Shown in pieces: positions 5,238-63,940 of a stretch of 64,000 bases of DNA. The stretch spans positions 62,001-126,000 of the forward strand of contig JAFZUW010000066.1 of assembly GCA_017618195.1 (NCBI GenBank). Direction: 5' to 3'. This DNA is from Lachnospiraceae bacterium. GTDB lineage: Bacteria > Bacillota > Clostridia > Lachnospirales > Lachnospiraceae. The stretch's first letter is position 1. Each line of letters begins with the position of its first letter. The notes under the pieces were generated by a model. It saw only the letters and a list, made by a program, of their open reading frames with translations. It did no database searches and had not been told where the DNA came from. Both the position numbers and the translations under genes were made by a program.

Positions 5238-7466
5238 ATGAACGAGAATCTGTACAAACTGATGAATTGGCCCGAGATTGAGGCCGTCGTTTATTCGGAA
5301 CATGACAATCCCCATCAGGTTCTGGGACCGAAGGTGACGCCCGACGGCGTCCTGATCGCCGCATTTGACCCCGATGCGAAAGAAGCATTCGCGGTCACCG
5401 GCGCGAAAGAAATTCCGATGGAAAAGGTGGACGAAGGCGGATATTTCGCCGTCCTGATCCCCGGAAAGAAGATCCCGCGCTACACGTTCCGCTTCCTCTA
5501 CGAAGAAGGCGAGCGGACATGCGAGGACGCTTACCGTTTCGCTCCGCAGATCTCGGAGGATGACCTGCATGCGTTCAATGCCGGCATTCACTACACCGTT
5601 TATGAGAAACTCGGCGCGCACCCGATGACCGTTGACGGCGTCGACGGCGTGTACTTTGCCGTATGGGCTCCCAACGTACTCCGCATCAGCGTGGTCGGCG
5701 AGTTCAACCACTGGGACGGCCGCCGCAATCCGATGCGCAGACTCGGCGGAAGCGGCGTATTCGAACTGTTCCTTCCCGAGGCGCAGGTCGGACAACTGTA
5801 TAAATTCGAATTAAAGGTGAAAGGCGGACTGACCTACTTGAAGGCAGACCCGTACGCCAACGCCTCCGAGCTTCGTCCCGGAACGGCAAGCAAGATTGCC
5901 GACCTCCGCGGCTTCAAGTGGACCGACGAAGCATATTTGAAAGCACTCGAGGAGAAGGATTTCAAGAAGTCTCCGATCAACATTTACGAAGTGCATCTCG
6001 GATCGTGGAAGAAGCCCGCGGACGAGAACGGCAGCTTTTACAATTTCCGCGAGCTGGCAGTTATGATTGCGGATTACGTGAAGGAGATGGGCTACACGCA
6101 TATCGAACTGATGCCCGTGATGGAGCATCCGCTCGACGCTTCCTGGGGTTATCAGGTAACCGGATATTACAGTGTTACCGCGCGTTACGGAACGCCCGAA
6201 GACTTCATGTTCTTCATGAACTATATGCATGAGCAGGGCATCGGCGTTATCCTTGACTGGGTGCCGGCGCATTTTCCGAGAGACACGTTCGGCCTTTCGA
6301 ATTTCGACGGAACATGTCTTTATGAGCATCAGGATCCGAGAAAGGGAAGCCACCCGCACTGGGGCACGCTGATCTTCAACTACGGACGTCCGGAGGTTTC
6401 CGACTTCCTGATCGCGGACGCGCTGTTCTGGCTTTCCGTTTACCACGCCGACGGTATCCGCATGGACGCTGTCGCATCGATGCTGTATCTTGATTACGGC
6501 AAGAACGACGGCGAGTGGGTTGCCAACATGTACGGCGGCAACGAGAATCTTGAAGCGATCGAGCTTCTGAAGCATCTGAATTCGATCGTAAAGAAGAGAA
6601 TGCCCGGACGATTGATGATCGCCGAAGAGTCGACCGCATGGCCGAAGATCACCGGAGACCTCAACGACGACGGACTCGGTTTCGACTTCAAATGGAATAT
6701 GGGCTGGATGAACGATTTCACGACCTACATGCGGCAGGATCCGCTGTTCCGCAGAGGCTGCCACGGATCGCTCACATTCAGCATGATTTACGCATACAGC
6801 GAGAATTTCATCCTCGTGTTCTCGCATGACGAGGTTGTTCACGGAAAAGGTTCGATGCTCGGCAAGATGCCCGGCACGTACGAAGAGAAGTTCGCGAACC
6901 TCCGTGTCGCATACAGCTACCTGATGACGCATCCCGGCAAGAAGCTTCTGTTCATGGGCCAGGATATGGCTCCGCTTTCCGAGTGGAACGAAGAGAAGAG
7001 TCTCGAGTGGCACCTCCTGACCGATCCGGTCGAGGGAGACCGCGGCGGCACGCTCAACGCGAAGATCCATCACATGATGAAGGATCTGTTCGCGGTATAC
7101 CGTTCGCATCCGGCTCTTTACGAGCTCGACCAGGATCCGGACGGCTTCGAGTGGATGAGCTGCCTTGACGCGGACCACAGCATTGTAACATTTGTCCGTA
7201 AGACCGAGGACCCGAATGACACGCTTTTCGTAGTGTGCAACTTCACCCCGGTTGTTTATGAGAAGCAGGCGGTCGGAGTGCCGTTCGCCGGCAAATACAA
7301 AGAAATCTTCAACAGTGACGCAGCGGTTTACGGCGGCGCGGGCAACACGAATCCGCGTGCGAAGCAGTCGAAGGCCGTTCGTACGGACGGACGCGACAAC
7401 TCCGTTCAGATCACGATCCCGCCGCTCGGATGCGCAATCTTCACATGCACCCCGGCCGGCAAATAG
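5238..7466 (+). CDS. glgB: 1,4-alpha-glucan branching enzyme GlgB
   Basis: GlgB makes the alpha-1,6 branches of glycogen by cutting and moving alpha-1,4 chains. The 742-aa protein has an N-terminal all-beta region and CBM48 (about 10-220), the GH13 barrel (about 250-630) and a C-terminal beta domain. The GH13 catalytic set is intact: nucleophile Asp in DGIRMDAV (about 410), acid/base Glu in IAEES (about 461) and stabiliser Asp in FSHDEVVHGKG (about 529). HPLDASWGYQ and YFMTHPG-like segments are typical of branching enzymes. A good ribosome site precedes the ATG. mscS follows only 9 bases later. glgA, glgC and glgP are not in the window. Confidence 0.96.
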   Translation: MNENLYKLMNWPEIEAVVYSEHDNPHQVLGPKVTPDGVLIAAFDPDAKEAFAVTGAKEIPMEKVDEGGYFAVLIPGKKIPRYTFRFLYEEGERTCEDAYRFAPQISEDDLHAFNAGIHYTVYEKLGAHPMTVDGVDGVYFAVWAPNVLRISVVGEFNHWDGRRNPMRRLGGSGVFELFLPEAQVGQLYKFELKVKGGLTYLKADPYANASELRPGTASKIADLRGFKWTDEAYLKALEEKDFKKSPINIYEVHLGSWKKPADENGSFYNFRELAVMIADYVKEMGYTHIELMPVMEHPLDASWGYQVTGYYSVTARYGTPEDFMFFMNYMHEQGIGVILDWVPAHFPRDTFGLSNFDGTCLYEHQDPRKGSHPHWGTLIFNYGRPEVSDFLIADALFWLSVYHADGIRMDAVASMLYLDYGKNDGEWVANMYGGNENLEAIELLKHLNSIVKKRMPGRLMIAEESTAWPKITGDLNDDGLGFDFKWNMGWMNDFTTYMRQDPLFRRGCHGSLTFSMIYAYSENFILVFSHDEVVHGKGSMLGKMPGTYEEKFANLRVAYSYLMTHPGKKLLFMGQDMAPLSEWNEEKSLEWHLLTDPVEGDRGGTLNAKIHHMMKDLFAVYRSHPALYELDQDPDGFEWMSCLDADHSIVTFVRKTEDPNDTLFVVCNFTPVVYEKQAVGVPFAGKYKEIFNSDAAVYGGAGNTNPRAKQSKAVRTDGRDNSVQITIPPLGCAIFTCTPAGK

Positions 7467-7475
7467 GAAAGAGAT

Positions 7476-8324
7476 ATGGTTAAGTTTATCGAATTATTGG
7501 AAGAAGGCGACATCAGCGGCGCGGCGGAAATCGTATGGCCGCTCATCTTCAAGCTGATCATGGCCGTGGTGATCTTCATCGCGGGCCGCAAGATCATCCG
7601 CTGGATCCGTAAAATCATCATCAACGCGGTAACGCCCAAGCTGGAACCCGCCGTTGCGGGATTTCTGCAGAGCAGTGCCGGCGTGCTTTTAAATCTGATA
7701 CTGATCTTCGTGATCATCGAGTATCTCGGTTTTTCGACGGCATCGCTTGTGACGATCCTCGGATCGGCCGGACTGGCGATCGGCCTTGCTCTGCAGGGCA
7801 GCCTTTCCAATCTGGCGGGCGGCGTGCTCCTCTTGGTGAATAAGCCGTTTTCAATCGGCGATTACATCATCGTCGGAACGATGGAGGGAACCGTTAAGAA
7901 CATCGGCGTCTGCTATACGAAGCTCAACACTCCGGATAACCGCATGGTTGTGCTTCCGAACGGAACGCTCAGCAACAGCAACCTCATCAACGTGTCGGCG
8001 GAACCGGAGCGGAGAATCGACATGATCATTCCGATCTCCTACAGTGACGACATCCGTTCCGTACGGAGCGTGCTCCTCGATATCGCGGAAGAGCAGACGA
8101 AGATCTTAAAGCACCATTCGGTTGACGTATTGACGAAGGAATTCGGAGCAGACAGCATTAATCTGATATTCCGCTTTTGGGTAAAGAAGGAAGATTACTG
8201 GTCATGTTTCTTTGAAACACAGGAACAGGTCCGGTACGCATTCCTTGAGAACGGATTTACGATTCCGTTCCATCAGATTGACATTGAGATTAAAAATCCC
8301 GCACCGAAAGAAGAGAAGCGGTAG
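7476..8324 (+). CDS. mscS: Small-conductance mechanosensitive channel MscS
   Basis: MscS-type channels open under membrane tension to release solutes during osmotic downshock. The 282-aa protein has three hydrophobic helices (about 20-45, 62-85 and 90-112). The pore-lining TM3 carries the Gly/Ala-rich pattern LGSAGLAIGLALQGSLSN, followed by the beta domain beginning PFSIGDYIIVG and the alpha-beta domain up to about 270. Length matches E. coli MscS (286 aa). The start lies 9 bases after glgB with an AAAGAGAT ribosome site, so the two are probably cotranscribed. Glutamine synthetase follows 19 bases later. Confidence 0.94.
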   Translation: MVKFIELLEEGDISGAAEIVWPLIFKLIMAVVIFIAGRKIIRWIRKIIINAVTPKLEPAVAGFLQSSAGVLLNLILIFVIIEYLGFSTASLVTILGSAGLAIGLALQGSLSNLAGGVLLLVNKPFSIGDYIIVGTMEGTVKNIGVCYTKLNTPDNRMVVLPNGTLSNSNLINVSAEPERRIDMIIPISYSDDIRSVRSVLLDIAEEQTKILKHHSVDVLTKEFGADSINLIFRFWVKKEDYWSCFFETQEQVRYAFLENGFTIPFHQIDIEIKNPAPKEEKR

Positions 8325-8343
8325 AAGATAGATAGGAGTCGAC

Positions 8344-10449
8344 ATGGAGCGTTTAACGGACATATTCGGAATTGATGTCTTTAACGAGACGGTGATGGAA
8401 GAAAGGCTTCCGAAAGAAGCTTTTCTGGCATGGAAGAAAGCAATGGAGGACGGCGAGCCTTTGGATCGTGAAGTCGCGGACGTGATCGCGGGCGCCATGA
8501 AGGAATGGGCAATCGAGCACGGCGCAACGCACTACACGCACTGGTTCCAGCCGCTTACCGGCATTACGGCCGAGAAGCATGACTCGTTCATTACACCGGC
8601 TCCGGGCGGCAAGGTTTTGATGGAATTTTCCGGTAAAGAGCTCATCAAGGGCGAGCCGGACGCATCTTCGTTTCCGAGCGGCGGACTCCGCGCAACGTTC
8701 GAGGCAAGAGGCTATACCGCATGGGACTGCACGTCCCCCGCGTTTTTGAGAGAAGACGCCGCAGGCGTTACGCTCTGCATTCCGACCGCGTTCTGCTCCT
8801 ATACCGGCGAAGCGCTCGATATGAAGACGCCGCTTCTTCGTTCGATGGAAGCAGTCAGCAAGCAGGCGGTCCGCATCGTTCACCTTTTCGGTGCGAGCGA
8901 GGTCAAGAAGGTAGACTGTTCGGTAGGCGCCGAGCAGGAGTATTTCCTCGTTGACCACCGCTCCTACATGCAGAGAGAAGACCTGATCTTTACGGGCAGC
9001 ACGCTGTTCGGCGCGAAGCCTCCGAAAGGACAGGAGATGGATGACCACTACTTCGGTAGCCTGAAGGAACGTGTCGCATCCTTTATGAAGGAACTGAACC
9101 GCGAGCTTTGGAAACTCGGCATTTACGCGAAGACGCAGCACAACGAGGCGGCTCCCGCGCAGCACGAGCTCGCTCCGATTTATACGTCCGTTAACATCGC
9201 GACCGACCATAACCAGCTCATCATGGAGTGCATGAAGAAAGTGGCGAAGCGCCACGGTCTTGAGTGCCTGCTTCACGAGAAGCCGTTCGCGGGCGTGAAC
9301 GGATCCGGTAAGCATAATAACTGGTCGCTAGTGACCGATACCGGCAAGAACCTGTTTAACCCCGGAAAGACACCGAATGAGAACATCCAGTTCCTGCTCT
9401 TCATGGCAGCCGTTCTGGAAGCCGTTGACACACATGCGGATCTGCTTCGTCTTTCCGCTGCCAACCCCGGCAACGACCGCCGTCTCGGCGGCAACGAGGC
9501 GCCTCCGGCAATCGTTTCCGTATTCCTCGGCGAGCAGCTTGACGACGTTGTGACGCAGCTGATCGAGACCGGCGAAGCGGCACGTCTTAAGAAGGTCGGA
9601 CGGCTTTACACGGGTGTTTCGACACTGCCGACGATCGGACGCGACGCGACCGACCGCAACCGCACGAGCCCGTTCGCATTTACCGGCAACAAATTCGAAT
9701 TCCGTTCGGTAGGTTCCTCGATGTCCATCGCGGATGCCAACACCGTTTTGAATACGATCGTTGCGGATACGCTTGAGAAGTTCGCGGACATTCTTGAAAA
9801 GGCTCCCGACTTTGAGCAGGCGGTACACAACCTGATCAAGGATTCGCTTACCGAGCATGAGCGGATCATCTTCAACGGAAACGGCTATGCGAAGGAATGG
9901 GTTGAGGAAGCGGAGCGCAGAGGTCTGCCGAATCTCCGTTCCATGGTGGAAGCAATCCCGGCGCTTACGACCGAGAAGGCGATCACCGTATTTACCCGTC
10001 AGAACGTTCTGACCGAGACCGAGCTTCGGAGCCGGTCCGAGATTTATTACGAGAATTATGCGAAGGAGATCAACATCGAAGCAAGAACGATGATCTCCAT
10101 GGCATCCACGAAATTCATTCCTGCCGTGATCAAGTATCTGAAGAACGTGGCTTCTTCGATGAACGAAGTGAAGCTCGCGTGCCCGGATGCGGACGTCAGC
10201 GTACAGGAAGACCTGATCCGCAGAACGTCGGATCTTCTGAAGAAGGCGCAGACCGCTCTTGCCACGCTGAAAGCGCTTGACGACGAAGCCGGAAAGAAAC
10301 AGGAAGGCAGAGAGATGGCGGTATTCTTCCGCGAGAAGGTAGTACCGGTTATGGATCAGCTCAGAGAGCCCGTTGACGAGCTCGAGACGATCGTGGATCA
10401 TGACCTCTGGCCGATCCCGACCTACGGCGAGATGCTTTACGAGATTTAA
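8344..10449 (+). CDS. glnN: Glutamine synthetase, type III (GSIII)
   Basis: This enzyme condenses glutamate and ammonia into glutamine with ATP. At 701 aa it is far longer than type I (about 450 aa) and matches GSIII of Bacteroides and Clostridia. Recognisable blocks include [20 protein letters not shown] (about 98-117), [10 protein letters not shown] (about 196), the substrate loop [14 protein letters not shown] (about 266) and the ATP/glutamate region [10 protein letters not shown] (about 319), with a long helical GSIII-specific C-terminus. GSIII enzymes lack the adenylylation loop of type I-beta enzymes. It follows mscS by 19 bases with a GGAG ribosome site; no GlnR box or PII gene was seen nearby. 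Confidence 0.95.
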
Positions 10450-10465
10450 GAAACGATAAGGGAAG

Positions 10466-10502
10466 CCGGACGGGGCGCTTCTTTGTGAGGCGCCCTGCCC
10501 GG
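10466..10502 (+). terminator. GC-rich hairpin after glutamine synthetase
   Basis: A hairpin with arms GGGCGC (10473-10478) and GCGCCC (10490-10495), extended by outer CCGG arms, lies between GSIII and the ABC-F gene. It has no clear T-run, so it may be a weak terminator or an RNA-processing or stabilising element. Confidence 0.4.
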
Positions 10503-10528
10503 ATAAACTTTTGAATGGAGAGGAATTT

Positions 10529-12163
10529 ATGATACAGGCATGCAATGTAACTCTGCGCATCGGAAAGAAAGCACTCTTTGAAGATGTAAACATCAAGTTC
10601 ACGGAAGGAAACTGCTACGGAATCATCGGTGCGAACGGCGCCGGAAAGTCCACTTTCCTGAAGATTCTGAACGGACAGCTTGAGCCCAGCAAGGGCGAGG
10701 TTGTCATCACCCCCGGACAGAGACTTTCCTTCCTGCAGCAGGATCACTTCAAATACGACGCGTACAACGTTCTCGATACGGTCATCATGGGCAACAAGCG
10801 CCTTTATGACATTATGCAGGAAAAGGACGCAATCTACGCAAAGGAAGAGTTCACCGAGGAAGACGGAATCAAGGCGAGCGAGCTCGAGACCGAATTTGCC
10901 GAGCTGAACGGATGGGAAGCGGAGTCCGACGCGGCTACGCTTTTGAACGGTCTCGGAATCGATACCGACATGCATTATGAGATGATGAGCGAGCTGAACG
11001 GCAACGACAAAGTTAAGGTTCTGCTTGCGCAGGCACTGTTCGGAAACCCCGACATCCTGCTTCTCGACGAGCCTACCAACCACCTCGACCTCGACGCGAT
11101 CAGCTGGCTCGAAGAGTTCCTGATCAATTTCGACAATACCGTCATCGTTGTCAGCCATGACCGTTACTTCCTCAATAAGGTATGTACGCACATCGCCGAC
11201 ATCGATTATTCGAAGATTCAGTTGTACGCCGGAAACTACGACTTCTGGTACGAGTCCAGCCAGCTGATGATCCGTCAGATGAAGGAAGCCAACCGTAAGA
11301 AAGAGGAGAAGATCAAGGAACTGCAGGAATTCATCCAGCGCTTCTCCGCAAACGCTTCGAAATCCAAGCAGGCGACTTCCCGTAAGCGTGCCCTTGAGAA
11401 GATCGAGCTTGACGACATCCGTCCTTCAAGCCGTAAATATCCTTATATCGATTTCCGTCCGGCGCGTGAGATCGGAAACGAAGTGCTGACGGTTTCGCAC
11501 GTATCGAAGACGATCGACGGAGTAAAGCTTCTCGACGATATTTCGTTCGTTGCGGGACGTGAAGACAAGATTGCATTTGTCGGCGGCAATACGCTTGCGA
11601 CAACGGCGCTCTTTAAGATTTTGGCGGGCGAAATGGAGCCCGATTCCGGTGAAGTCAAATGGGGCGTTACGACGACACAGGCATACTTCCCGAAGGACAA
11701 TACCGAGCTGTTCCGCGGAAGCGAGTCGATCGTTGACTTCCTGATGCCGTTCTCTCCCGAAAAGGATGTAACTTATGTCCGCGGATTCCTCGGACGTATG
11801 CTCTTCGCAGGCGATGATGGCGTGAAGCCGGTTAACGTACTTTCCGGAGGCGAGCGCGTGCGCGTTATGCTTTCGAAGATGATGATCATGGGCGCGAACG
11901 TTCTGATTCTTGACGAGCCTACCAACCACCTTGACATGGAATCGATCACGGCACTCAACAACGGCCTGATCAAGTTCCCGGGCGTTGCGCTTTTCACCGC
12001 GCTTGACCACCAGTTCATTCAGACGGTAGCGAACCGTATCATGGAAATCATTCCGGACGGGACGCTGATCGATAAGGTAACCACATACGATGAGTATCTC
12101 GCAAACGACGAGATGGCAAGAAAGCGTCAGAAACTTGTTGTAAATGCGGAAGAGGACGACTAG
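10529..12163 (+). CDS. ABC-F family ATPase (YbiT/YkpA type)
   Basis: ABC-F proteins have two ATPase domains and no membrane part; they bind ribosomes and act in translation or, in some branches, antibiotic protection. Domain 1 has Walker A GANGAGKST (about 36-44) and the signature replaced by SELNGNDKVKV; Walker B is ILLLDEPTNHLD (about 183). A basic linker (about 250-315) joins to domain 2, whose Walker A reads GGNTLATTA (about 353), degenerate, followed by signature LSGGERVRVML and a second LDEPTNHLD. The degenerate second Walker A and the SELNG signature are also seen in YkpA-type members. I chose the ATG at 10529, directly after GGAGAGGA, over a TTG 18 bases upstream. Confidence 0.92.
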   Translation: MIQACNVTLRIGKKALFEDVNIKFTEGNCYGIIGANGAGKSTFLKILNGQLEPSKGEVVITPGQRLSFLQQDHFKYDAYNVLDTVIMGNKRLYDIMQEKDAIYAKEEFTEEDGIKASELETEFAELNGWEAESDAATLLNGLGIDTDMHYEMMSELNGNDKVKVLLAQALFGNPDILLLDEPTNHLDLDAISWLEEFLINFDNTVIVVSHDRYFLNKVCTHIADIDYSKIQLYAGNYDFWYESSQLMIRQMKEANRKKEEKIKELQEFIQRFSANASKSKQATSRKRALEKIELDDIRPSSRKYPYIDFRPAREIGNEVLTVSHVSKTIDGVKLLDDISFVAGREDKIAFVGGNTLATTALFKILAGEMEPDSGEVKWGVTTTQAYFPKDNTELFRGSESIVDFLMPFSPEKDVTYVRGFLGRMLFAGDDGVKPVNVLSGGERVRVMLSKMMIMGANVLILDEPTNHLDMESITALNNGLIKFPGVALFTALDHQFIQTVANRIMEIIPDGTLIDKVTTYDEYLANDEMARKRQKLVVNAEEDD

Positions 12164-12201
12164 TCCGCACAATCAGACGATTCTTTAGGGAAGGAAAGCT
12201 G

Positions 12202-14178
12202 ATGAAAGTACTCGGGGATTACAAGATTACAGTTGCCGCCGGCGACCCGTCCGTACTCGGAACGACCGTTTCCGGGAAGTACGTGAACTATGCGGTTGCG
12301 GTGCCGTCCGTTTCGGAAGTGCTGCTGCATGTTTACGACGGGGAAGGCAGAACGCCTTTATACACGATCCGTCTTGGGGAAGAGGATCGTTACGGCGACA
12401 TATTTTCCGTAAAGGTTGCCGATACGGCGAAGGACCGCACATACCTGTACGAAGCCAAAGGAGAACGCTTCCTGGACCCGTACTCGAAGCTTGTGCTCGG
12501 CCGCGGCGTATTCGGACACAAACTGTCGCAGAAGGAGCGCAGATCGCTCCGTTCGCTTGTTGCCTTCCATGATTTTTCGTGGCAGGAGGACCGTCATCCG
12601 GCGATTCCGTACACGGACATGGTGCTTTATAAGCTGCATGTGCGCGGATTTACGATGGAGGCCGGCGTTTCGCATAAAGGCACGTATCTCGGCGTCGCAG
12701 AGAAGGCGGACTACCTGAAGGAACTCGGCGTCAACGCGGTACTCTTAATGCCGTGTACCGAGTTTAACGAAATCGACGAGCCGGAGGAAAATGAGGACAT
12801 TCCTGCCTTTTTCTCCTCGACATTCTACAGAAGTAGTACATACAAAAACATGGTAGAACAGGCATCAACGGAGGCAGATGCTCCCGAGGATGTCCGTAAG
12901 TACCGCATCAATTACTGGGGCTATACGAACCACTATTTCTTCTTCGCTCCGAAGGCCGGCTACGCTTCAAAACCGGAGCGTGCGGATGCGGAGTTCAAGA
13001 CGATGGTGAAGAAACTCCATGAGCGCGGAATCGAAGTGCTGACGGAGATGAACATTCCGGTCGGAACGAACAGGTGCATGCTTGTGGACGCTCTCCGTTT
13101 CTGGGTCAAGGAATACCATGTGGACGGTTTCCGGATCAATCTCGAGCAGACCGATCCGCTGCTTCTTGCAGGAGACCCGTACCTGTCCGGAACGAAGCTG
13201 ATCGGATGGGGATGGGACATTCCCGCAATCTATCCGAAAGACCGTGTTCCGACGACGGTTACATTGGCGGAATTCCACGACGGCTTCCGGACCGATGCGA
13301 GAAAATTCCTCAAGGGAGACGAAGGAATGGCGGGCGCATTTGCCTCACGCGTGATACGCCGTCCGGACCGCTCCTCGGTGATCAATTACATAACGGACCA
13401 TAACGGCTTTACGCTCAACGACCTTTACATGTATGACGTGAAGCATAACGAAGCAAACGGCGAGCGCGGGCTCGACGGAAGCGATTACAACTACGGCTGG
13501 AACTGCGGAAGCGAAGGACCGGACCGCAGGAAGAGGATCCGCGATTTGCGGCTTAAGATGCGCAAGAACGCGTTTCTTGCGATGTTCCTTTCGCAGGGCG
13601 TGCCGATGATCCTTGCGGGCGACGAGTTCGGCAACACGCAGGACGGTAACAACAATGCCTATTGTCAGGACAATCCGGTCGGCTGGGTTTCCTGGAAGGA
13701 AGCAAGAAAGAATACGGAACTGACCGCGTTTGTGAAGCGCATGGCGGAGCTTCGGGCAAAGCACCCGGCACTGCACAATCCGCTCGGACTGCGCGGAACC
13801 GATTACCTTTCGTGCGGATGCCCGGACGTATCCGTACACAGCAAGACCGCATGGCGCCCGGACGAAAGCCCGTATAACCGAAGCGTCGGGATATTGCTCG
13901 GCGGTGAATTTGCCCTGCGCGGCAAGGCCGAACACGACGATTCTTTTTACCTGATTTTTAATATGTATTGGGAAGAGCAGGTTTTCGAAATTCCTCATCT
14001 TTCCGGCGGCAGAACGTGGAAGGTTGTTCTTGCGAGTGACCCCGGCATGAAAGAGGGACCGCTCACGGATGCAAGACTTGCGGTTGCGCCGCGAACGATA
14101 GCAGTACTTCAAAGTGAGGAGAATCATGTCACAGAACAACTTAAGCGAAAGAAAACAAAAGCTCCGGAAGCAGAATAA
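12202..14178 (+). CDS. GlgX/isoamylase-like GH13 protein lacking all catalytic residues
   Basis: By overall order this is a glycogen-debranching (GlgX/isoamylase) relative: an N-terminal CBM48-like domain (about 1-115), a GH13-like barrel (about 130-530) with KHNEANGE and DEFGNTQDGNNNAYCQDN, and a short C-terminal beta domain. Yet the three catalytic residues are gone. The nucleophile in FRFD is Asn313 (DGFRIN), the acid/base region AEPWD reads GWGWD with Trp336 in place of Glu, and the stabiliser in HDGFTL is Asn401 (DHNGFTL). Region I also lacks its usual NH. The reading frame is intact over 658 aa, so this looks like a maintained pseudoenzyme, perhaps a glucan-binding or regulatory protein. 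It overlaps the next gene by 53 bases. Confidence 0.85.
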   Translation: MKVLGDYKITVAAGDPSVLGTTVSGKYVNYAVAVPSVSEVLLHVYDGEGRTPLYTIRLGEEDRYGDIFSVKVADTAKDRTYLYEAKGERFLDPYSKLVLGRGVFGHKLSQKERRSLRSLVAFHDFSWQEDRHPAIPYTDMVLYKLHVRGFTMEAGVSHKGTYLGVAEKADYLKELGVNAVLLMPCTEFNEIDEPEENEDIPAFFSSTFYRSSTYKNMVEQASTEADAPEDVRKYRINYWGYTNHYFFFAPKAGYASKPERADAEFKTMVKKLHERGIEVLTEMNIPVGTNRCMLVDALRFWVKEYHVDGFRINLEQTDPLLLAGDPYLSGTKLIGWGWDIPAIYPKDRVPTTVTLAEFHDGFRTDARKFLKGDEGMAGAFASRVIRRPDRSSVINYITDHNGFTLNDLYMYDVKHNEANGERGLDGSDYNYGWNCGSEGPDRRKRIRDLRLKMRKNAFLAMFLSQGVPMILAGDEFGNTQDGNNNAYCQDNPVGWVSWKEARKNTELTAFVKRMAELRAKHPALHNPLGLRGTDYLSCGCPDVSVHSKTAWRPDESPYNRSVGILLGGEFALRGKAEHDDSFYLIFNMYWEEQVFEIPHLSGGRTWKVVLASDPGMKEGPLTDARLAVAPRTIAVLQSEENHVTEQLKRKKTKAPEAE

Positions 14179-15151
14179 GAACCGGCCGAATCCGAACGAG
14201 AACGTTCCGAAGAAGGTCTCCAAAGACCAGATCAAAAAGGAACGTCAGCGCGAGAGAGAAGCGGCGGTTGTTCCGGAGGAGCGGAAGAAGCGGAAGATCG
14301 CGGTTACGGCCGTTATGCTTAAGACCATGCTGACGCTGACAACGGCGATCGGCGTATACGCAATCGTGTTCCATAATCCGGACACACAGATGCGCCAGGT
14401 GCTCCGAGGCGTTGCGGCCATGGGCATCCCGCTCGCGATCTATCTTACCGTGGAGGCGTTTTACAAGACGTCAAGCCGTGGCCGGTATTTCGGAAGGCTT
14501 ATGCTCGGGGCGATTCTCGCACAGTTTCCGATGCATTTTCTGGCTTATTACGATAACGCGCGGAATGCCGCAATGCGGAAAGAGTATTTTGAAGGACTCG
14601 GGGAGATGGAGCAGGTGGAATACCTCCTTAAGTGGCGGGAGTTCCCGATGCTCAACTACCTGTTCACGATCATCTTCGCGCTGTTCTTTATCTGGCTGTT
14701 AAACCTTGTGTTTTCAAAGTTTATGTCTCCGGACACGAACATGGCGTGGAAGGGCTTCTACGGAGCCTGCATGGTATTGATCCTCGTGCTCGGTATCGTG
14801 GCCGGCGTATTCTTACAGACGCTTAAGATCATTGAGGCTCCGGTATTTACCGTCATGCTCGTATTTGCCTGCGTGCTTTTAAGAGGCAAGGCGGAATTGC
14901 TTTCGATCGTGCTCGGCATTATCGGCGTCACGTTCGGTCTGATTGCGGGACCGGACAACGGAAAGCCTTATTTCGCGATCGGCGCGGCTTTGGCAGCGTT
15001 TCTGATCCGCTTTTATCAGGGCCGGCTCGGCTATGATAAGGAGAAATACCCTCGCGTAAAATATTGGTTTTATCTTATTTATCTGTCGGTTCTGGCAGCC
15101 GCATGCGTTGCCGGCATGTACGTGTATGTACAGACTTACGGCGGAAATTAA
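14126..15151 (+). CDS. TraX-like polytopic membrane protein
   Basis: This 341-aa protein has a very basic N-terminal tail of about 60 residues and then eight or so membrane helices. The C-terminal pattern IRFYQGRLGYDKEKYPRVKY followed by a final helix resembles the YNGKRG...KYFFY segment of TraX-family proteins, which include the F-plasmid pilin acetylase and many chromosomal Firmicute proteins of unknown function. I treat this as a distant family match, not a function. The ATG at 14126 follows GAGGAG and lies inside the end of the preceding GH13-like gene, which suggests translational coupling. The CIRCE palindrome downstream could act as its terminator. Confidence 0.6.
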   Translation: MSQNNLSERKQKLRKQNKNRPNPNENVPKKVSKDQIKKERQREREAAVVPEERKKRKIAVTAVMLKTMLTLTTAIGVYAIVFHNPDTQMRQVLRGVAAMGIPLAIYLTVEAFYKTSSRGRYFGRLMLGAILAQFPMHFLAYYDNARNAAMRKEYFEGLGEMEQVEYLLKWREFPMLNYLFTIIFALFFIWLLNLVFSKFMSPDTNMAWKGFYGACMVLILVLGIVAGVFLQTLKIIEAPVFTVMLVFACVLLRGKAELLSIVLGIIGVTFGLIAGPDNGKPYFAIGAALAAFLIRFYQGRLGYDKEKYPRVKYWFYLIYLSVLAAACVAGMYVYVQTYGGN

Positions 15152-18920: not shown

Positions 18921-18994
18921 CGAGGCGTGGCTCAGTTTGGTAGAGCGCTGCGTTCGGGACGCAGAGGTCGTGGGTTCGAATCCCGTCGCCTCGA
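18921..18994 (+). tRNA. tRNA-Pro (anticodon CGG)
   Basis: A 74-nt cloverleaf: acceptor CGAGGCG/CGCCTCG, D arm GCTC/GAGC, anticodon stem CTGCG/CGCAG with loop TTCGGGA (anticodon CGG, G37), T loop TTCGAAT and discriminator A. CCA is not encoded. It is the first gene of the cluster. Confidence 0.95.
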
Positions 18995-18996
18995 CT

Positions 18997-19273
18997 CAGG
19001 TCATCCATCCGCTTCGCGGATACATGACAAGAAGGAGCACATCGCATTAGAAATCGGCTTCGCCGATGCGATGCGCGCAGGTCATCCATCTGCTCCGCAG
19101 ATACATGACAAGAAGGAGCACATCGCATCAGAAATCGGCTTCGCCGATGCGATGCGCGCAGGTCATCCATCCGCTTCGCGGATACATGACAAGAAGGAGC
19201 ACATCGCATTAGAAATCGGCTTCGCCGATGCGATGCGCGCAGGTCATCCATCCGCTTCGCGGATACATGACAA
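18997..19273 (+). repeat. 81-bp tandem repeat, three full units and a partial fourth
   Basis: Units start at 18997, 19078, 19159 and 19240 (the last stops at 19273). Each full unit has two hairpins. Hairpin A (19000-19028 in unit 1) has core arms ATCCGC/GCGGAT; hairpin B (19040-19073) has inner arms ATCGGC/GCCGAT and outer arms CATCGC/GCGATG. In unit 2 the core of hairpin A is ATCTGC/GCAGAT, a paired change that keeps the stem. The repeat fills the gap between tRNA-Pro(CGG) and tRNA-Thr and should be in the same precursor RNA. Because 81 is a multiple of three, both strands stay open and give false reading frames. Confidence 0.95.
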
Positions 19274-19275
19274 AT

Positions 19276-19348
19276 GCTGGAATAGCTCAGCCGGTAGAGC
19301 ACTTCACTCGTAATGAAGGGGTCGTCAGTTCAAATCTGATTTCCAGCT
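19276..19348 (+). tRNA. tRNA-Thr (anticodon CGT)
   Basis: A 73-nt cloverleaf: acceptor GCTGGAA/TTCCAGC, anticodon stem CTTCA/TGAAG with loop CTCGTAA (anticodon CGT), T arm GTCAG/CTGAT and discriminator T. CCA is not encoded. It starts two bases after the last partial 81-bp unit. Confidence 0.95.
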
Positions 19349-19370
19349 TTCCCGTATGGGTTAATATTTT

Positions 19371-19444
19371 CGAGGCGTGGCTCAGTTTGGTAGAGCACCA
19401 CGTTAGGGACGTGGGGGTCGCGTGTTCAAGTCACGTCGCCTCGA
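19371..19444 (+). tRNA. tRNA-Pro (anticodon AGG)
   Basis: A 74-nt cloverleaf whose first 26 bases are identical to the Pro-CGG gene of this cluster. The anticodon stem is CCACG/CGTGG with loop TTAGGGA, giving anticodon AGG with G37, T arm GCGTG/CACGT and discriminator A. A34 in a proline tRNA is uncommon in bacteria. CCA is not encoded. Confidence 0.92.
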
Positions 19445-19446
19445 TG

Positions 19447-19477
19447 AAACTGCCGTTTTATTGACGGCAGTTTTTTT
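19447..19477 (+). terminator. Terminator of the tRNA cluster
   Basis: Arms AAACTGCCGT and ACGGCAGTTT around TTTATTG, followed by more T. It ends the Pro-Thr-Pro tRNA transcript. Confidence 0.9.
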
Positions 19478-19534
19478 GTTACTTTTTTACAAAACGCCGG
19501 CGGCATTTTCTACAGCACGGCGGGTGGTTTCCGA

Positions 19535-19563
19535 TTGCGCATGCAGCCGGAAAATGCTACGAT
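19535..19563 (+). promoter_or_regulatory. Likely promoter of the DUF5688 gene
   Basis: TTGCGC (19535-19540), 17 bases, TACGAT (19558-19563) with an extended -10 TGC. It leaves a leader of about 175 bases before the ATG at 19747. That leader contains two perfect small hairpins: CGGGG/CCCCG at 19597-19611 and GTCCGG/CCGGAC at 19617-19631. Confidence 0.5.
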
Positions 19564-19746
19564 GATTGTGTCGGTTGACAAGCTCTTTTATCTGATCGGG
19601 GATCATCCCCGTCTGTGTCCGGTAACCGGACGTCTGTCGTTTCTGCTCCGTTCACGCAGGAATCGGAATCATAAGATTCGGCATTTTCAGCAATTAGAAG
19701 AAGGACGGTCTGTTTTGCAGGCGGTCTTTAAAACGGAGGTATACTT

Positions 19747-20748
19747 ATGGAATCATTATGCCCGAATTCAGGGGAGAACTATGTCGTTTTGGATTTTACG
19801 AATTTCTGCGAAGAGTTGAAGCGCAGGGTGGAAGAGCAGGTTGAAGGCTGCGAGGCGGAGCTTCGGAGCATTGTCAAGAATAACGGAACGGAGTTCCGAA
19901 GCATCACGATCCGAAAAGCGGGAGAAACGGTGCTTCCGACCATTTATCTGGAAGCGTTCTACCGTGAATACAAGCGCGGGATGCCGCTCGGAAAGGTCGT
20001 TGAGGAACTGGTTGAAGTATATGAGAAGAACCGCAATCCGTGGCCGGAGGGGCTGGATTTTTCATTTGGGGGAATACGGGACAAGATCGGTTTCCGCGTC
20101 GTGAATTACGAGAAGAACCGGAAAATGCTGGAAACCATGCCGTATCTGAAATTGGATGAGTGGGCGGTCTGCTTTGAGTGTGTCGTCTCGAGGGAAGGCG
20201 GAAACGTCGGTGCGGTCCGTGTTGACGAACGCATGCAGAAGGAGTGGAACATTTCAACGGAACAGCTGACAGGTCTTGCCGTAAAGAACACGTTTCGTCT
20301 GATACCGTCAAAGGTGGAGCCGATCGAGGACGTGCTTGCGGGGCTGCTGCTTTCGGAGGTAAGCGGGCAGTGTGAAGACGGAGAAGACAGCGAAGAGAAG
20401 GCCCGGGAGCTGGTGGATACGGTGCTTGATCAGAAGAACCGGAAGGGGCTCCCGATGTATGTGCTTTCAAACATCCTGAATCACTACGGCGCAACCTCTA
20501 TCCTGAACATCCCGTTTATGGATAAGGTGCGGGAGAAGCTGAAAGAGGATTTCTATATCCTTCCGTCAAGCGTTCACGAACTGATCCTTATCCCTGTTTC
20601 GGAAGCACCGTGCGAGGAGAAGCTTTTAAACATGGTCCGGGAAGTCAACATGAAGGAAGTGCCCGAGGAGGATTTTCTTGCGGACGGCGTGTACCGCTAC
20701 GGTACGCTCCGGTCAAAGATGACCGCCTTGATGGGACTTTGCGGATAA
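19747..20748 (+). CDS. DUF5688 family protein
   Basis: The 333-aa soluble protein has the layout of the DUF5688 family, common in Lachnospiraceae and of unknown function: a start such as FTNFCEELKRRVEE, the block IVKNNGTEFRSITIRKAG followed by PTIYLEAFYREYKRG, a middle GIRDKIGFRVVNYEKN, and EWAVCFECVVSREGG. No enzyme motif, signal peptide or membrane helix is visible. GGAGG lies 7 bases before the ATG. It stands alone between the tRNA cluster and the opposed tRNA-Arg gene. Members often occur in several copies per genome; only one is in this window. Confidence 0.75.
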   Translation: MESLCPNSGENYVVLDFTNFCEELKRRVEEQVEGCEAELRSIVKNNGTEFRSITIRKAGETVLPTIYLEAFYREYKRGMPLGKVVEELVEVYEKNRNPWPEGLDFSFGGIRDKIGFRVVNYEKNRKMLETMPYLKLDEWAVCFECVVSREGGNVGAVRVDERMQKEWNISTEQLTGLAVKNTFRLIPSKVEPIEDVLAGLLLSEVSGQCEDGEDSEEKARELVDTVLDQKNRKGLPMYVLSNILNHYGATSILNIPFMDKVREKLKEDFYILPSSVHELILIPVSEAPCEEKLLNMVREVNMKEVPEEDFLADGVYRYGTLRSKMTALMGLCG

Positions 20749-20781
20749 AAGAAAAACCGGCGTATGTCTGACATACGCCGG
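20747..20781 (-). terminator. Terminator of tRNA-Arg (minus strand)
   Basis: A perfect 11-bp stem, CCGGCGTATGT with ACATACGCCGG around three bases (20757-20781), followed on the minus strand by TTTTTCTTTT. It lies just past the DUF5688 stop and may also affect that convergent transcript. Confidence 0.9.
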
Positions 20782-20809
20782 ATTACCGGGACCTCGCGGT
20801 CCTCTGCCG

Positions 20810-20883
20810 TGCACCTGAAGGGATTCGAACCCCCGACCATCAGCTTCGGAAGCTGCTACTCTATCCAGCTGAGCTACAAGTGC
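20810..20883 (-). tRNA. tRNA-Arg (anticodon CCG)
   Basis: On the minus strand a 74-nt cloverleaf: acceptor GCACTTG/CAGGTGC, D arm GCTC/GAGT, anticodon stem GCAGC/GCTGA (one mismatch at the base) with loop TTCCGAA (anticodon CCG), T loop TTCGAAT, discriminator A. CCA is not encoded. Confidence 0.94.
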
Positions 20884-60571: not shown

Positions 60572-61349
60572 GATAAAAAGTGCTTTTGAAAACGGCAAAG
60601 CGTTCATCCCCTTCGTGACGTGCGGAGATCCCGATGCGGAGACGACCGAAGCGATCATCCGCGAGATGGAGCGTAACGGCGCGGATCTTGTGGAGATCGG
60701 CATTCCGTTCTCCGATCCCACGGCGGAGGGGCCGGTCATTCAGGAGGCAAATATCCGCGCGCTGGCAGCAGGCATTACGACCGATAAGGTTTTCGACGTT
60801 GTTACTAACCTTCGAAGCGGAGCGGATGCGGTTAAGATTCCGCTTGTGTTTATGACGTACGCGAACGTCGTATTTTCCTACGGAGCGGAGCGGTTCTTCG
60901 CGCGCTGTAAGGAAGTCGGCATTGACGGCGTGATCCTTCCCGACGTGCCGTACGAAGAGAAGGAGGAATTTGCCGTTCCCGCCCGAAAGTCCGGCATCGA
61001 TTTCATCTCGCTGATCGCGCCTACCTCGCAGGACCGCATCGGAACGATCGCAGCCGACGCGGAAGGTTTTGTTTACATCGTATCGAGTCTCGGCGTTACC
61101 GGCGTCCGCGACAGCATCACGACCGACATCGGAGCGCTCAGCAGAAGCATCAAGGCTAACACATCGATCCCGTGCGCGGTCGGCTTCGGCATCTCGACGC
61201 CCGAGCAGGCGGCAGCCGCCGCAAAGCATGCGGACGGAGCCATCGTCGGTTCCGCGATCATGCGTCTGATCGCGGCAAATGGGAAGCAGAGTGCCCCTGT
61301 TGTCGGAGCATATGTAAAGAGCATGAAGGATGCGCTCAGAGGACTTTAA
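60564..61349 (+). CDS. trpA: Tryptophan synthase alpha subunit
   Basis: TrpA splits indole-3-glycerol phosphate and channels indole to TrpB. The 261-aa barrel keeps the catalytic Glu44 ([11 protein letters not shown]), but the second catalytic residue, Asp60 in Salmonella numbering, is Glu55 (PTAEGP). Phosphate-binding segments VTGVR and GFGIST are intact. The ATG at 60564 follows GGAGAGGAAA and overlaps the trpB end by eight bases. Confidence 0.95.
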
Positions 61350-61358
61350 GAAATGATT

Positions 61359-61395
61359 CGCCCCGGCCCGTTTGGAGACAGACGGAACCGGGGCG
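61359..61395 (+). terminator. GC-rich hairpin after the trp operon
   Basis: CGCCCCGG (61359-61366) and CCGGGGCG (61388-61395) form a strong stem with an inner pairing region; the following TTGCTATTCTATTTT is only partly T-rich and also holds the next -35 box. Confidence 0.65.
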
Positions 61396-61396
61396 C

Positions 61397-61425
61397 TTGC
61401 TATTCTATTTTAAAAAAGGTATAAT
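61397..61425 (+). promoter_or_regulatory. Promoter of the CotH-type gene
   Basis: TTGCTA (61397-61402), 17 bases, TATAAT (61420-61425), with transcription expected to start near 61432. Confidence 0.75.
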
Positions 61426-61438
61426 AGTTAAGGCGTAT

Positions 61439-61556
61439 GTAATAAGTGAGGATGCTTATTACCTGCGGAAACGGGCAGTATCGAAGTTTCCGCAGCCTTA
61501 TAAAATGGGAAGGATGGCCGCTTTTCCGTGCATGATCCGCACAGGAAACAGCGGCC
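61439..61556 (+). promoter_or_regulatory. Structured 5' leader with three hairpins
   Basis: Hairpin 1 (61439-61462) has arms GTAATAAG/CTTATTAC. Hairpin 2 (61463-61495) abuts it with arms CTGCGGAAAC/GTTTCCGCAG. Hairpin 3 (61516-61556) has arms GGCCGCT/AGCGGCC, TTTCC/GGAAA and GTGC/GCAC with two single-base bulges. A short UAAGG/CCUUA helix could close the first two, though its 5' side lies at the expected start of the RNA. It matches no riboswitch class I know. Confidence 0.7.
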
Positions 61557-61567
61557 GGTATAATATT

Positions 61568-63940
61568 ATGAAACGTATTCTTGCAATCCTCCTTCTGCTT
61601 TGCCTCGGGTGCAGCCTGATCGCATGCGGGAAGGACACACACGCGGACATTCCGGATCCCGACGACTCTTCGCACGGAATCAATCCTACGGGCGGCGCGA
61701 CAGTCGATCCCTCGGGAACGGCCGCGGGCGATTATGACCTGTACATAAGCGAAGCGATGGCGGACAACCGGAAGCTGTATCTGAATACCGATGCGGACTG
61801 GATCGAGATCGGAAGCCATGAGGAGAACGTCGTATCCCTGAACGGCTATTATCTGACCGATGATATGGATGAACCGCATGCGTTTCCGCTTGCGGGCAAC
61901 GTGATTGACCAGAACGGATACGTCGTTGTGCTGCTGCCGAAGGAGGCGCCGTTCCACTTAAGCGGCGAAGGCGAGACCATCTATCTGGTAAGGAACAACG
62001 AGGTTGCCGACAGCCTTACCTATACCGACGAAATCGGCGACCGCTCGGTTTCGAAGGACGGCGTACTGCCTTATGCCACACCCGGATATGCCAATACGCA
62101 GGAAGGGTTAGAGGCTTATCAGGCACAGGTGAAGCTGCCGGAACTGATCTTCACGGAAGCCATGTCCGACAACTCGAAGTACAGCCCCGTCGGAGGCGCG
62201 TATTATGATTTCGTGGAATTAAAGAATAACAGCGATCATGCCGTAAATCTTGCGGACTACTATATTTCGGACAAGCGCAGCAATCTGACAAAGTACCGTC
62301 TTCCGGACCGCGAACTCGGCGCCGGAGAGTACCTTGTCATCTATTGCTCCGGTCTCGAAGCCGACGGACACGCGCCGTTTAAGATCTCCGGAGGCGGCGA
62401 GGCGGTTTACCTTACGGACGGCACGAACCTGATCGATATGATCGATGTTCCCGCCGACCTTGAGAAGGATAAGAGCTACGGCCGGAACGACAACCGGTGG
62501 GTTTATATGGAAGACCCCACGCCCGGCACCGCGAACAATAGCGGCTTTGAGGCCCGTGTTGCGGCACCTGTTTCGGATGTGAAAACCGGTGTTTATGAGT
62601 CGGCAGTGAACGTTACCTTAAGCGGGGAAGGAACCATCTATTATACGACCGACGGCAGCATGCCGACCCTTTCCTCGAAAACCTATACCGGAGCCATTAA
62701 CGTAACGGGTGTGACGACAATCCGTGCGATTGCCGTGAAGGACGGACGCCAGAGTTCACCGGCTTCGTTTACCTATGTGATCAACCAAAACCATACCCTT
62801 CCGATTCTTGTCGTGAACGGACCGCGGGACGGCATTCTCGGGGACAACGGCGTGGTCAAGCAGATTTCAAAACGCGAACTCGAAGCGCAGGCCATGATGA
62901 CGTTAATTGAAAACGGTGAAGAAAAATTCTCCGTTCCCTGCGGAATCAAACTGCACGGCAATGACAGCCGTAAGATGGCGAAGCAGAATTTTACGGTGCA
63001 TTTCCGCTCTTCGTATGGCGCCAGCAAGCTGAAGTACAAGCTGTTTGACGATACGGATATTGACTCCTTCAACTCCATCCTGTTAAAGGGCGGCAGCGAG
63101 CGCTACCGGGAAGGCATCATTGAAGACGAGTTCATGACGCATATGGTGCTCGGCAATACGAACCTGAGCGCACAGGCCAGCAAGCCGGTGGTATTATACC
63201 TGTGCGGCGAGTTCTGGGGAATCTACTTCATGCGTGAGCGTTTCAGCGCCGATTATGTTGCGGATCATTTTGATGTTTCAAAGGATACGGTCAATCTGAT
63301 CAACGGCTACGGCAGTTATGCAGAGGCCGAGAACGGTAGCCGGAAGGATTATGACGCGCTTGTGTCATTTGCCAAAACCAATGACCTGAACAAGGACGAG
63401 AACTATGATTATCTGGCAAGCCGGATTGATCTGAACAGCCTGTTCGACTGGTACATATGCCGCGGATACTACGGCGATTCTGATCTGGCCAATATCCGGT
63501 ACTTTGCCGCGCCGGACGGAGACAATAAGTGGCGCTGGATGTTCTTCGACCTTGACTGGGGATTCTGTGTGCAGTCCCATGCAATCTCGACGGCACTTAA
63601 GAACGACGGAAACCATGTACTTGCCTGGAAGATCACACACAGCAAGCGCGGGCAGGATGCATTCCTGAAGCGTGTTGATTATCTGTTGGATACGATCCTC
63701 AATGAGGAATATATTACAAAGGAAATCAATTCGTGGAAGGCAATTCTCGAACCGGAGATTGCCGGGGAGCGTTCCCGCTGGGGCGGATCGGTTAACGGCT
63801 GGAATTCCAGTCTGAATGTTTTATACAATTACGTTAAAGACAACAAGCGGGATATGGCAGTGCTTAAGGATCTTAAGAGCATGTTCGGGCTTACCGATGC
63901 GCAGATGAAGGAGTATTTCGGAAGTCACTGGGCACAGTGA
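61568..63940 (+). CDS. CotH-family surface lipoprotein with lamin-tail domains
   Basis: The 790-aa lipoprotein starts MKRILAILLLLCLGCSLIAC, with a lipobox at SLIAC. Two lamin-tail-like domains follow (about 55-175 and 190-315; LYISEAMADNRK and LIFTEAMSDNSK mark their starts), then a chitobiase-C-like beta domain (about 330-405; GTIYYTTDGSMPT) and a CotH-kinase domain (about 410-770) with CGIKLHGNDSRK, the GEFWGIYFMRERFSADYV block and metal-binding DLDWGF. CotH proteins are atypical kinases known from spore coats and, in Clostridia, cellulosome-like surfaces. The ATG at 61568 has no visible Shine-Dalgarno; an earlier start would break the signal peptide. Confidence 0.88.
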   Translation: MKRILAILLLLCLGCSLIACGKDTHADIPDPDDSSHGINPTGGATVDPSGTAAGDYDLYISEAMADNRKLYLNTDADWIEIGSHEENVVSLNGYYLTDDMDEPHAFPLAGNVIDQNGYVVVLLPKEAPFHLSGEGETIYLVRNNEVADSLTYTDEIGDRSVSKDGVLPYATPGYANTQEGLEAYQAQVKLPELIFTEAMSDNSKYSPVGGAYYDFVELKNNSDHAVNLADYYISDKRSNLTKYRLPDRELGAGEYLVIYCSGLEADGHAPFKISGGGEAVYLTDGTNLIDMIDVPADLEKDKSYGRNDNRWVYMEDPTPGTANNSGFEARVAAPVSDVKTGVYESAVNVTLSGEGTIYYTTDGSMPTLSSKTYTGAINVTGVTTIRAIAVKDGRQSSPASFTYVINQNHTLPILVVNGPRDGILGDNGVVKQISKRELEAQAMMTLIENGEEKFSVPCGIKLHGNDSRKMAKQNFTVHFRSSYGASKLKYKLFDDTDIDSFNSILLKGGSERYREGIIEDEFMTHMVLGNTNLSAQASKPVVLYLCGEFWGIYFMRERFSADYVADHFDVSKDTVNLINGYGSYAEAENGSRKDYDALVSFAKTNDLNKDENYDYLASRIDLNSLFDWYICRGYYGDSDLANIRYFAAPDGDNKWRWMFFDLDWGFCVQSHAISTALKNDGNHVLAWKITHSKRGQDAFLKRVDYLLDTILNEEYITKEINSWKAILEPEIAGERSRWGGSVNGWNSSLNVLYNYVKDNKRDMAVLKDLKSMFGLTDAQMKEYFGSHWAQ

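Follow-up and report, generated by a model that had tools for sequence, protein, structure and literature searches.

The locus and its neighbourhood

The window analysed here is a stretch of 64,000 nucleotides from the genome of a Lachnospiraceae bacterium, and it contains a gene for a protein of the GH13/isoamylase type that has lost its catalytic triad, which we call pseudo-GlgX (protein P0001, Table 1). The frame is intact, as the initial annotation had stated: its 658 codons run without interruption from an ATG, which is preceded by a good ribosome-binding site. The nearest NCBIfam family is TIGR02100 (GlgX), which P0001 matches at 346 bits without reaching the curated cut-off of 640.9, a strict value that is passed by 27 of the 48 genomes counted below as carriers of active GlgX. 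Among the sequences of solved structures, P0001 matches plant isoamylase 1 at 251–266 bits, bacterial and archaeal GlgX/TreX at 204–245 bits and plant isoamylase 2 at 126–138 bits. It is 35–39% identical to the active rows of our alignment A2 and can be aligned with them over nearly its whole length, and beyond the triad it keeps the isoamylase-type sequence with its signature blocks. These blocks include the two fold landmarks that had been reported as kept, KHNEANGE at residues 414–421 and NNNAYCQDN at residues 483–491. A CBM48 match (E up to 0.01) was found in 8 of 28 members of the clade described below, with none in P0001 itself.

Table 1 Positions of genes, sites and residues at the pseudo-GlgX locus (window coordinates)
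Feature	Position	Strand	Remarks
glgB (branching enzyme)	5238..7466	+	GH13 catalytic motifs present
ABC-F ATPase gene	10511..12163	+	nearest model PRK15064 (below cut-off); 38 nt upstream of pseudo-GlgX
Probable ribosome-binding site AGGGAAGGAAAG	12187..12198	+	precedes the pseudo-GlgX ATG; from reading the sequence
Pseudo-GlgX gene (GH13/isoamylase type, catalytic triad lost)	12202..14178	+	658 aa, protein P0001
W239-G-Y241	12916..12924	+	equivalents of S. venezuelae Trp222/Tyr224; W in 76/76, Y in 69/76, F in 7/76 pseudo rows
Region I remnant, residues 281–291	13042..13074	+	active-site His lost; about 44 residues fewer than in GlgX
Asn313	13138..13140	+	nucleophile (Asp) position, by alignment
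Trp336	13207..13209	+	acid/base (Glu) position, by alignment
Asn401	13402..13404	+	transition-state stabiliser (Asp) position, by alignment
Residues 405–520	13414..13761	+	nearly as conserved in pseudo as in active rows; mean entropy 1.46 vs 1.31 bits
Glu421	13462..13464	+	equivalent of S. venezuelae Glu470 (sugar contact); Glu in 76/76 pseudo rows
Asn485, Tyr487	13654..13662	+	equivalents of S. venezuelae Asn534/Tyr536 (sugar contacts); N in 75/76, Y in 72/76 pseudo rows
Membrane protein gene, distant TraX family	14126..15151	+	start overlaps the pseudo-GlgX end by 53 nt

The gene had been described as lying beside glgB, which is a loose reading: glgB is about 4.7 kb upstream on the same strand, and mscS, a type-III glutamine synthetase gene and the ABC-F gene separate the two. 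Within the genus the order glgB–mscS–glnA(III)–ABC-F–pseudo-GlgX–membrane gene–htpG holds as far as the stretches reach, save that mscS was not found in one locus (L064), and glgB lies within the same stretch in nine of the ten genus loci with long flanks (the exception is L067). Outside the genus the neighbours are gltX, uvrD, DUF1292, DUF5662, trpS and ABC-F genes, and a glgA, glgB, glgC or glgP match occurs in the fetched flanks of 1 of 55 loci, so that a glg operon was rejected as the general context. That one locus (L102) belongs to Oribacterium; its pseudo-GlgX (5959–8568) has 863 residues and ends in a long low-complexity tail in which ITASAND-like repeats occur, and glgB (8564–10804) starts right at its end.

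The membrane protein encoded immediately downstream has no Pfam TraX match by itself. A profile was built from 12 downstream genes of other genera, among them one with a score of 172 bits against Pfam TraX. It matches each of the 20 genus rows, which come from 19 genomes, with scores from 137 down to 26 bits and E-values of 3e-42 to 4e-8 for a file of 78 sequences; the window protein is the weakest match at 25.6 bits. A TraX-family gene lies within about 70 nt of the pseudo-GlgX end in all 19 testable genus genomes (G002, whose locus is cut by a contig end, is outside this count) and in 12 of the 55 other loci, and the pair occurs in two wider contexts, an ABC-F side and a gltX–uvrD side. No TraX-like frame was seen in the fetched stretches, some of them short, of 46 live-GlgX loci. 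Relatives of TraX include membrane acyltransferases.

In the remaining 43 of the 55 non-genus loci, some of which end close to pseudo-GlgX, no TraX gene was found at the downstream place. Pseudo-GlgX is instead followed directly by a DUF5662 gene in 23 of these 55 loci, recognized by its HDLSKY and HH motifs and, for one member, by Pfam (L045, L046, L047, L050, L056, L082–L084, L086, L087, L089, L090, L092–L095, L097, L100, L104, L116, L129, L138 and L155). Elsewhere in the window there are four tRNA genes (Pro, Thr, Pro, Arg; 18921–20883) around a DUF5688 gene (19747–20748), and a CotH kinase-domain protein with Lamin Tail Domain and Fn3-associated parts (61172–63940).

Loss of the catalytic residues and of region I

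The initial annotation had named Asn313, Trp336 and Asn401 as the replacements of the GH13 triad, and a 42-row alignment assigns the same columns. Ten of its rows bear the triad, namely E. coli K-12 GlgX (L070), Peptoclostridium GlgX (L071) and eight other relatives, and since these give identical columns we rejected a misplacement of the triad. The reported loss of region I is likewise seen: where active enzymes have DVVxNH, P0001 reads LTEMNIPVG, and the following residues, about 44 of them, are absent, which leaves a loop of 11 residues vs 52–57 in the triad-bearing relatives.

This loop divides 122 aligned rows into two classes, with 10–11 residues in 76 and 52–57 residues in 46. The complete Asp/Glu/Asp triad is found in 45 of the 46 long-loop rows and in none of the 76 short-loop rows, a pattern beyond chance, where the active rows span many phyla and the pseudo rows one family, with 21 of the 76 coming from one genus and one (L078) apparently being the same locus as another (L011). 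Orthologues with a normal triad, which would have contradicted the idea of a pseudoenzyme, were looked for, and there are none among the 76 clade rows read. Most short-loop rows (58) retain no triad residue, while 16 retain one and two (L035 and L083) retain two, both of the latter without the nucleophile. The nucleophile Asp is kept in a single short-loop row (L045), which is without the other two triad residues; position 313 is otherwise N, M, I, V, L, K and others. Position 336 accepts nearly any residue (Glu in 12 of 76) and position 401 is mostly Asn (Asp in 7 of 76). The equivalent of S. venezuelae His271 is His in none of 60 dead forms (genus thinned), and the W338 and H400 positions also drift. 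The initial annotation had proposed to test whether the three substitutions are shared by orthologues. As such they are not: the exact replacement residues vary, and the clade has in common the loss of the set together with the region-I deletion. The sole long-loop row without a full triad, from a Prevotella record (L111, 3598–5667), is missing the very region-IV stretch that carries the stabiliser Asp; the cause may be a faulty assembly, or this may be a second type of inactive GlgX.

Because the Asp/Glu/Asp triad is general in GH13, we take its loss as derived. From these residues, it is very probable that pseudo-GlgX would be unable to hydrolyse its substrate by the GH13 mechanism.

Distribution and selection

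A tree of 49 of the 76 short-loop and 28 of the 46 long-loop rows, computed with the loop and triad columns excluded, splits the two classes by one branch with an SH-aLRT support of 100. Of 21 other genomes searched in the same genus, 19 have a homologue of pseudo-GlgX, one copy being split by a contig end, and the two genomes without it are 82% (G020) and 79% (G021) complete. A scan of named genomes with the clade profile returned at least 80 loci, and the best matches are mostly Lachnospiraceae.

In a survey of 150 genomes of the family (149 genera, completeness at least 95%), whose named members are Lachnospiraceae, the dead form is found in 124 and normal GlgX in 48, as judged by score: both forms occur in 46 genomes, the dead form alone in 78, the live form alone in two (G025, G185) and neither in 24. 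A genome was classed as a pseudo-GlgX carrier above 440 bits with profile A1 and as an active-GlgX carrier at 455 bits or more with TIGR02100, and the TIGR02100 family matches listed fall into two groups with none between 268 and 455 bits. Direct reading of the triad positions of the dead form covers 10 of these genomes (G000, G002 in part, G024, G026, G028, G029, G030, G033, G035 and G036). The active-GlgX call of G078 rests on a fragment at 455.6 bits, G133 counts as a carrier on a 450-bit partial match, and G146, whose match of 341 bits lies in a frame of 759 aa, was assigned to neither class. The dead form is commoner in genomes with live GlgX (46 of 48) than in those without it (78 of 102; Fisher p 0.0025, a value that ignores kinship).

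Across a class-wide sample of 293 genomes, 11 have a match in the dead-form score range, all of the same family, and at least two further genomes of the family have none among the genomes listed. The profile search, with matches to E 1e-80, found no dead form in the approximately 280 class genomes outside the family; six of these do match, all in the live-GlgX range by score (283–389 bits).

The initial annotation had proposed to test for a low dN/dS, and comparison of the window gene with four genus members gave 0.054, 0.101, 0.106 and 0.133 by the NG86 method, with dS near or above 1 in the more distant pairs. These values lie within the range of five neighbouring genes in the same genomes (glgB, mscS, glutamine synthetase, ABC-F and htpG; 0.018–0.140). 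Pseudo-GlgX is under strong purifying selection in the genus, less tight than that on ABC-F or glgB. With family-wide orthologues, a single clade and purifying selection, the earlier proposal of a maintained pseudoenzyme is well supported.

Residues kept around the old cleft

The structure of S. venezuelae GlgX, an enzyme under c-di-GMP control, with acarbose offers a guide to the sugar-binding residues: contacts described for the −1 sugar are Trp222, Tyr224, His271, Asp342, Glu378, Trp380 and His449, and those to other sugars are Arg212, Glu470, Asn534 and Tyr536 (PMC9530166). We mapped the contacts to P0001 via another Streptomyces GlgX (L158), at an offset of 13–14 residues, and placed all but Arg212.

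The contacts kept in the pseudo rows are listed in Table 1; the exceptions to Asn485 are one gap, and those to Tyr487 are three Trp and one gap. When the 658 positions are ranked by entropy, the six lost −1 and catalytic positions fall at percentiles 39–83, and E421, N485 and Y487 at percentiles 0–8. The segment of residues 284–345, which holds two of the catalytic positions, is far looser in pseudo rows than in live GlgX (2.27 vs 0.85 bits), in contrast to residues 405–520. At position 421 the 46 active rows have Glu in 23, Trp in 22 and Tyr in one, and since live GlgX carries either Glu or Trp there, the Glu of the pseudo rows is not forced by the fold. This Glu/Trp split in live GlgX is a possible specificity marker in its own right.

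The pattern is indirect evidence, and it is what would be expected if the protein had given up catalysis and retained the ability to bind sugars at the rim. Some of the conservation of the cleft residues may be structural and serve the fold. On balance the retained contacts suggest that pseudo-GlgX probably still binds glucan.

Other glucan enzymes of the genome and family

In its own genome pseudo-GlgX is the sole GlgX-like gene, and there is no active GlgX. A search of this genome for type I pullulanase at E 1e-90 gave nothing, and there is no GDE_C match either (GH133 was sought in 26 genomes). The genome has one glycogen synthase match, two GlgB-type genes and one neopullulanase-like gene with catalytic motifs. 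The second GlgB-type gene, on contig 78 (L058, 8240–11380), encodes a protein 38% identical to the window GlgB. Neopullulanases can cut alpha-1,6 bonds, and the neopullulanase-like GH13 on contig 31 (L057, 6212–8341), whose motifs are intact, may be the chief enzyme acting on such bonds in genomes that lack GlgX.

Within the family sample the neopullulanase-like gene occurs in 142 of 150 genomes, including all 78 pseudo-GlgX carriers without GlgX; the four carriers that are without it all have active GlgX. Type I pullulanase is absent from 57 of those 78 carriers, all 57 of which have the neopullulanase-like gene, and a link between pseudo-GlgX and type I pullulanase was rejected (32 of 124 carriers vs 7 of 26 non-carriers, p = 1). 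One carrier from outside the sample (G001, 98% complete) shows two PF00128 matches only, the better of which is GlgB (7.5e-14), and neither is in the neopullulanase range. A glycogen synthase family match is found in 149 of the 150 genomes, the exception being a pseudo-GlgX carrier (G078), and because all 26 genomes without pseudo-GlgX have such a match, glycogen synthesis does not need this protein.

Comparison with known non-catalytic relatives

Pseudo-GlgX resembles GlgX/TreX (TIGR02100; GH13_11) in its near-full-length alignment, its KHNEANGE and GNNNAYCQDN blocks and its contact residues for the outer sugars, and differs in the catalytic Asp, Glu and Asp, the region-I His and the roughly 44 residues that it lacks, as well as in a family score of 346 vs 640.9 bits. 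Proteins of GH13 type without enzyme activity are known in animals, where 4F2hc and rBAT are transporter subunits with no link to glucan; they share with pseudo-GlgX a GH13-type fold without catalysis, but they are unlike it in being subunits of animal transporters.

Non-catalytic homologues of isoamylase are already known, the plant ISA2 being the closest parallel. It is described as varying at four or more of five catalytic residues and as having an extra N-terminal beta-sandwich (PMC12510319); it joins ISA1 (PMC12892837, PMC12510319, PMC3787081) and in rice raises ISA1 activity (PMC12892837). Like the bacterial clade, it is an isoamylase paralogue without catalytic residues, the nucleophile among them, with one old origin, under selection and in a lineage that stores alpha-glucan (PMC12510319). 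The two differ in that profile A1 is nearer, by score, to land-plant ISA1 (414–427 bits) than to ISA2 (211–227 bits), and in that P0001 has no room for the beta-sandwich, because the ISA1 match begins at its residue 12 in one comparison and at profile position 7 in the other. Furthermore, 78 of the 124 carriers have no active GlgX. The bacterial clade plausibly works like ISA2, by analogy, but is not a member of it and would have a separate origin. Among bacterial glycogen enzymes, GlgD is described as a non-catalytic partner and regulatory relative of GlgC (PMC10395257); GlgD and pseudo-GlgX are both non-catalytic but unrelated, so that the likeness is one of analogy only.

Possible functions of pseudo-GlgX

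We propose that a relative of GlgX and isoamylase lost alpha-1,6 hydrolysis, that this form became fixed early in the Lachnospiraceae, and that it may now hold branched alpha-glucan along the rim of the former cleft and serve glycogen metabolism in an accessory or regulatory role. This whole reading, a non-catalytic glucan-binding protein with such a role, has in our judgement about an even chance of being right. That pseudo-GlgX would have a glycogen enzyme, or glycogen, as its target could likewise go either way. A role in glycogen metabolism is supported by the retained sugar-contact residues and by the near-universal glycogen synthase, and weakened by the fact that closeness to glgB is limited to the genus and one Oribacterium locus. 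Against it also stand the 26 non-carriers, all of which keep glycogen synthase, and a gene context that is mostly not related to glycogen. A more specific version, in which an independent counterpart of ISA2 would bind glycogen, set its branching or mobilisation and, in some members of the family, be coupled to a TraX-type membrane acyltransferase through which the stored glucan would be sensed at the membrane, we regard as doubtful.

The plant precedent (PMC12892837, PMC12510319, PMC3787081) raises the alternative that pseudo-GlgX is an ISA2-like subunit and forms a heteromer with a single active enzyme for alpha-1,6 bonds, which would be GlgX where present and otherwise the neopullulanase-like GH13 (contig 31 in this genome) or GlgB. 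The presence of pseudo-GlgX in 46 of the 48 active-GlgX genomes is in keeping with this, and so is the neopullulanase-like gene in every GlgX-less carrier, with GlgX in the four carriers that do without that gene. However, 78 of 124 carriers have no GlgX, on which ground an obligate GlgX partner was rejected; with 142 of 150 genomes carrying the neopullulanase-like gene in any case, its presence says little, and the pattern was found post hoc; and carrier G001, at 98% completeness, shows no match in the neopullulanase range. We consider such a heteromer unlikely. Somewhat less likely still is a partnership with the downstream TraX-family protein, for instance as the cytosolic, glucan-responsive partner of a membrane acyltransferase, with a role not mainly in glycogen turnover. 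The pairing throughout the testable genus genomes and in 12 other loci, across two wider contexts, speaks for it, as does the lack of a TraX-like frame in the fetched stretches, some short, of the 46 active-GlgX loci, but inherited gene order could explain the pair, no TraX gene was found there in 43 of the 55 other loci, some of them ending close by (23 have DUF5662 instead), and the window protein matches weakly, at 25.6 bits and without Pfam TraX.

Two further readings have much lower probability. If pseudo-GlgX were still an enzyme, with another mechanism or substrate, it could help to account for the 57 GlgX-less carriers that are also without type I pullulanase and have few known debranching enzymes left. 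We hold this to be very improbable, as the clade has no conserved substitute acid at the site, its pocket positions are variable, and all 57 have the neopullulanase-like gene, whose copy in this genome has intact motifs. Triad loss would also fit a decaying copy limited to the source strain, a reading that we rejected as next to impossible, given the gene in 19 of 21 other genus genomes and 124 of 150 family genomes and a dN/dS of 0.05–0.13. An accessory or regulatory protein that would bind glucan without cleaving it is the explanation we prefer.

Implications

Among the titles listed by our search of an open-access library, none concerns a catalytically dead bacterial GlgX clade. In this family the commonest GlgX-like protein, present in 124 of 150 genomes vs 48 for the live form, is by its sequence not a debranching enzyme. 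Where reconstructions of glycogen pathways in gut bacteria rely on counting GlgX homologues, they may therefore be in error; two glgX homologues, for example, are given for Blautia obeum (PMC10395257). If pseudo-GlgX does bind glucan, a non-catalytic isoamylase would have arisen separately in plants and in the Lachnospiraceae, and the bacterial version could be tested in isolates.
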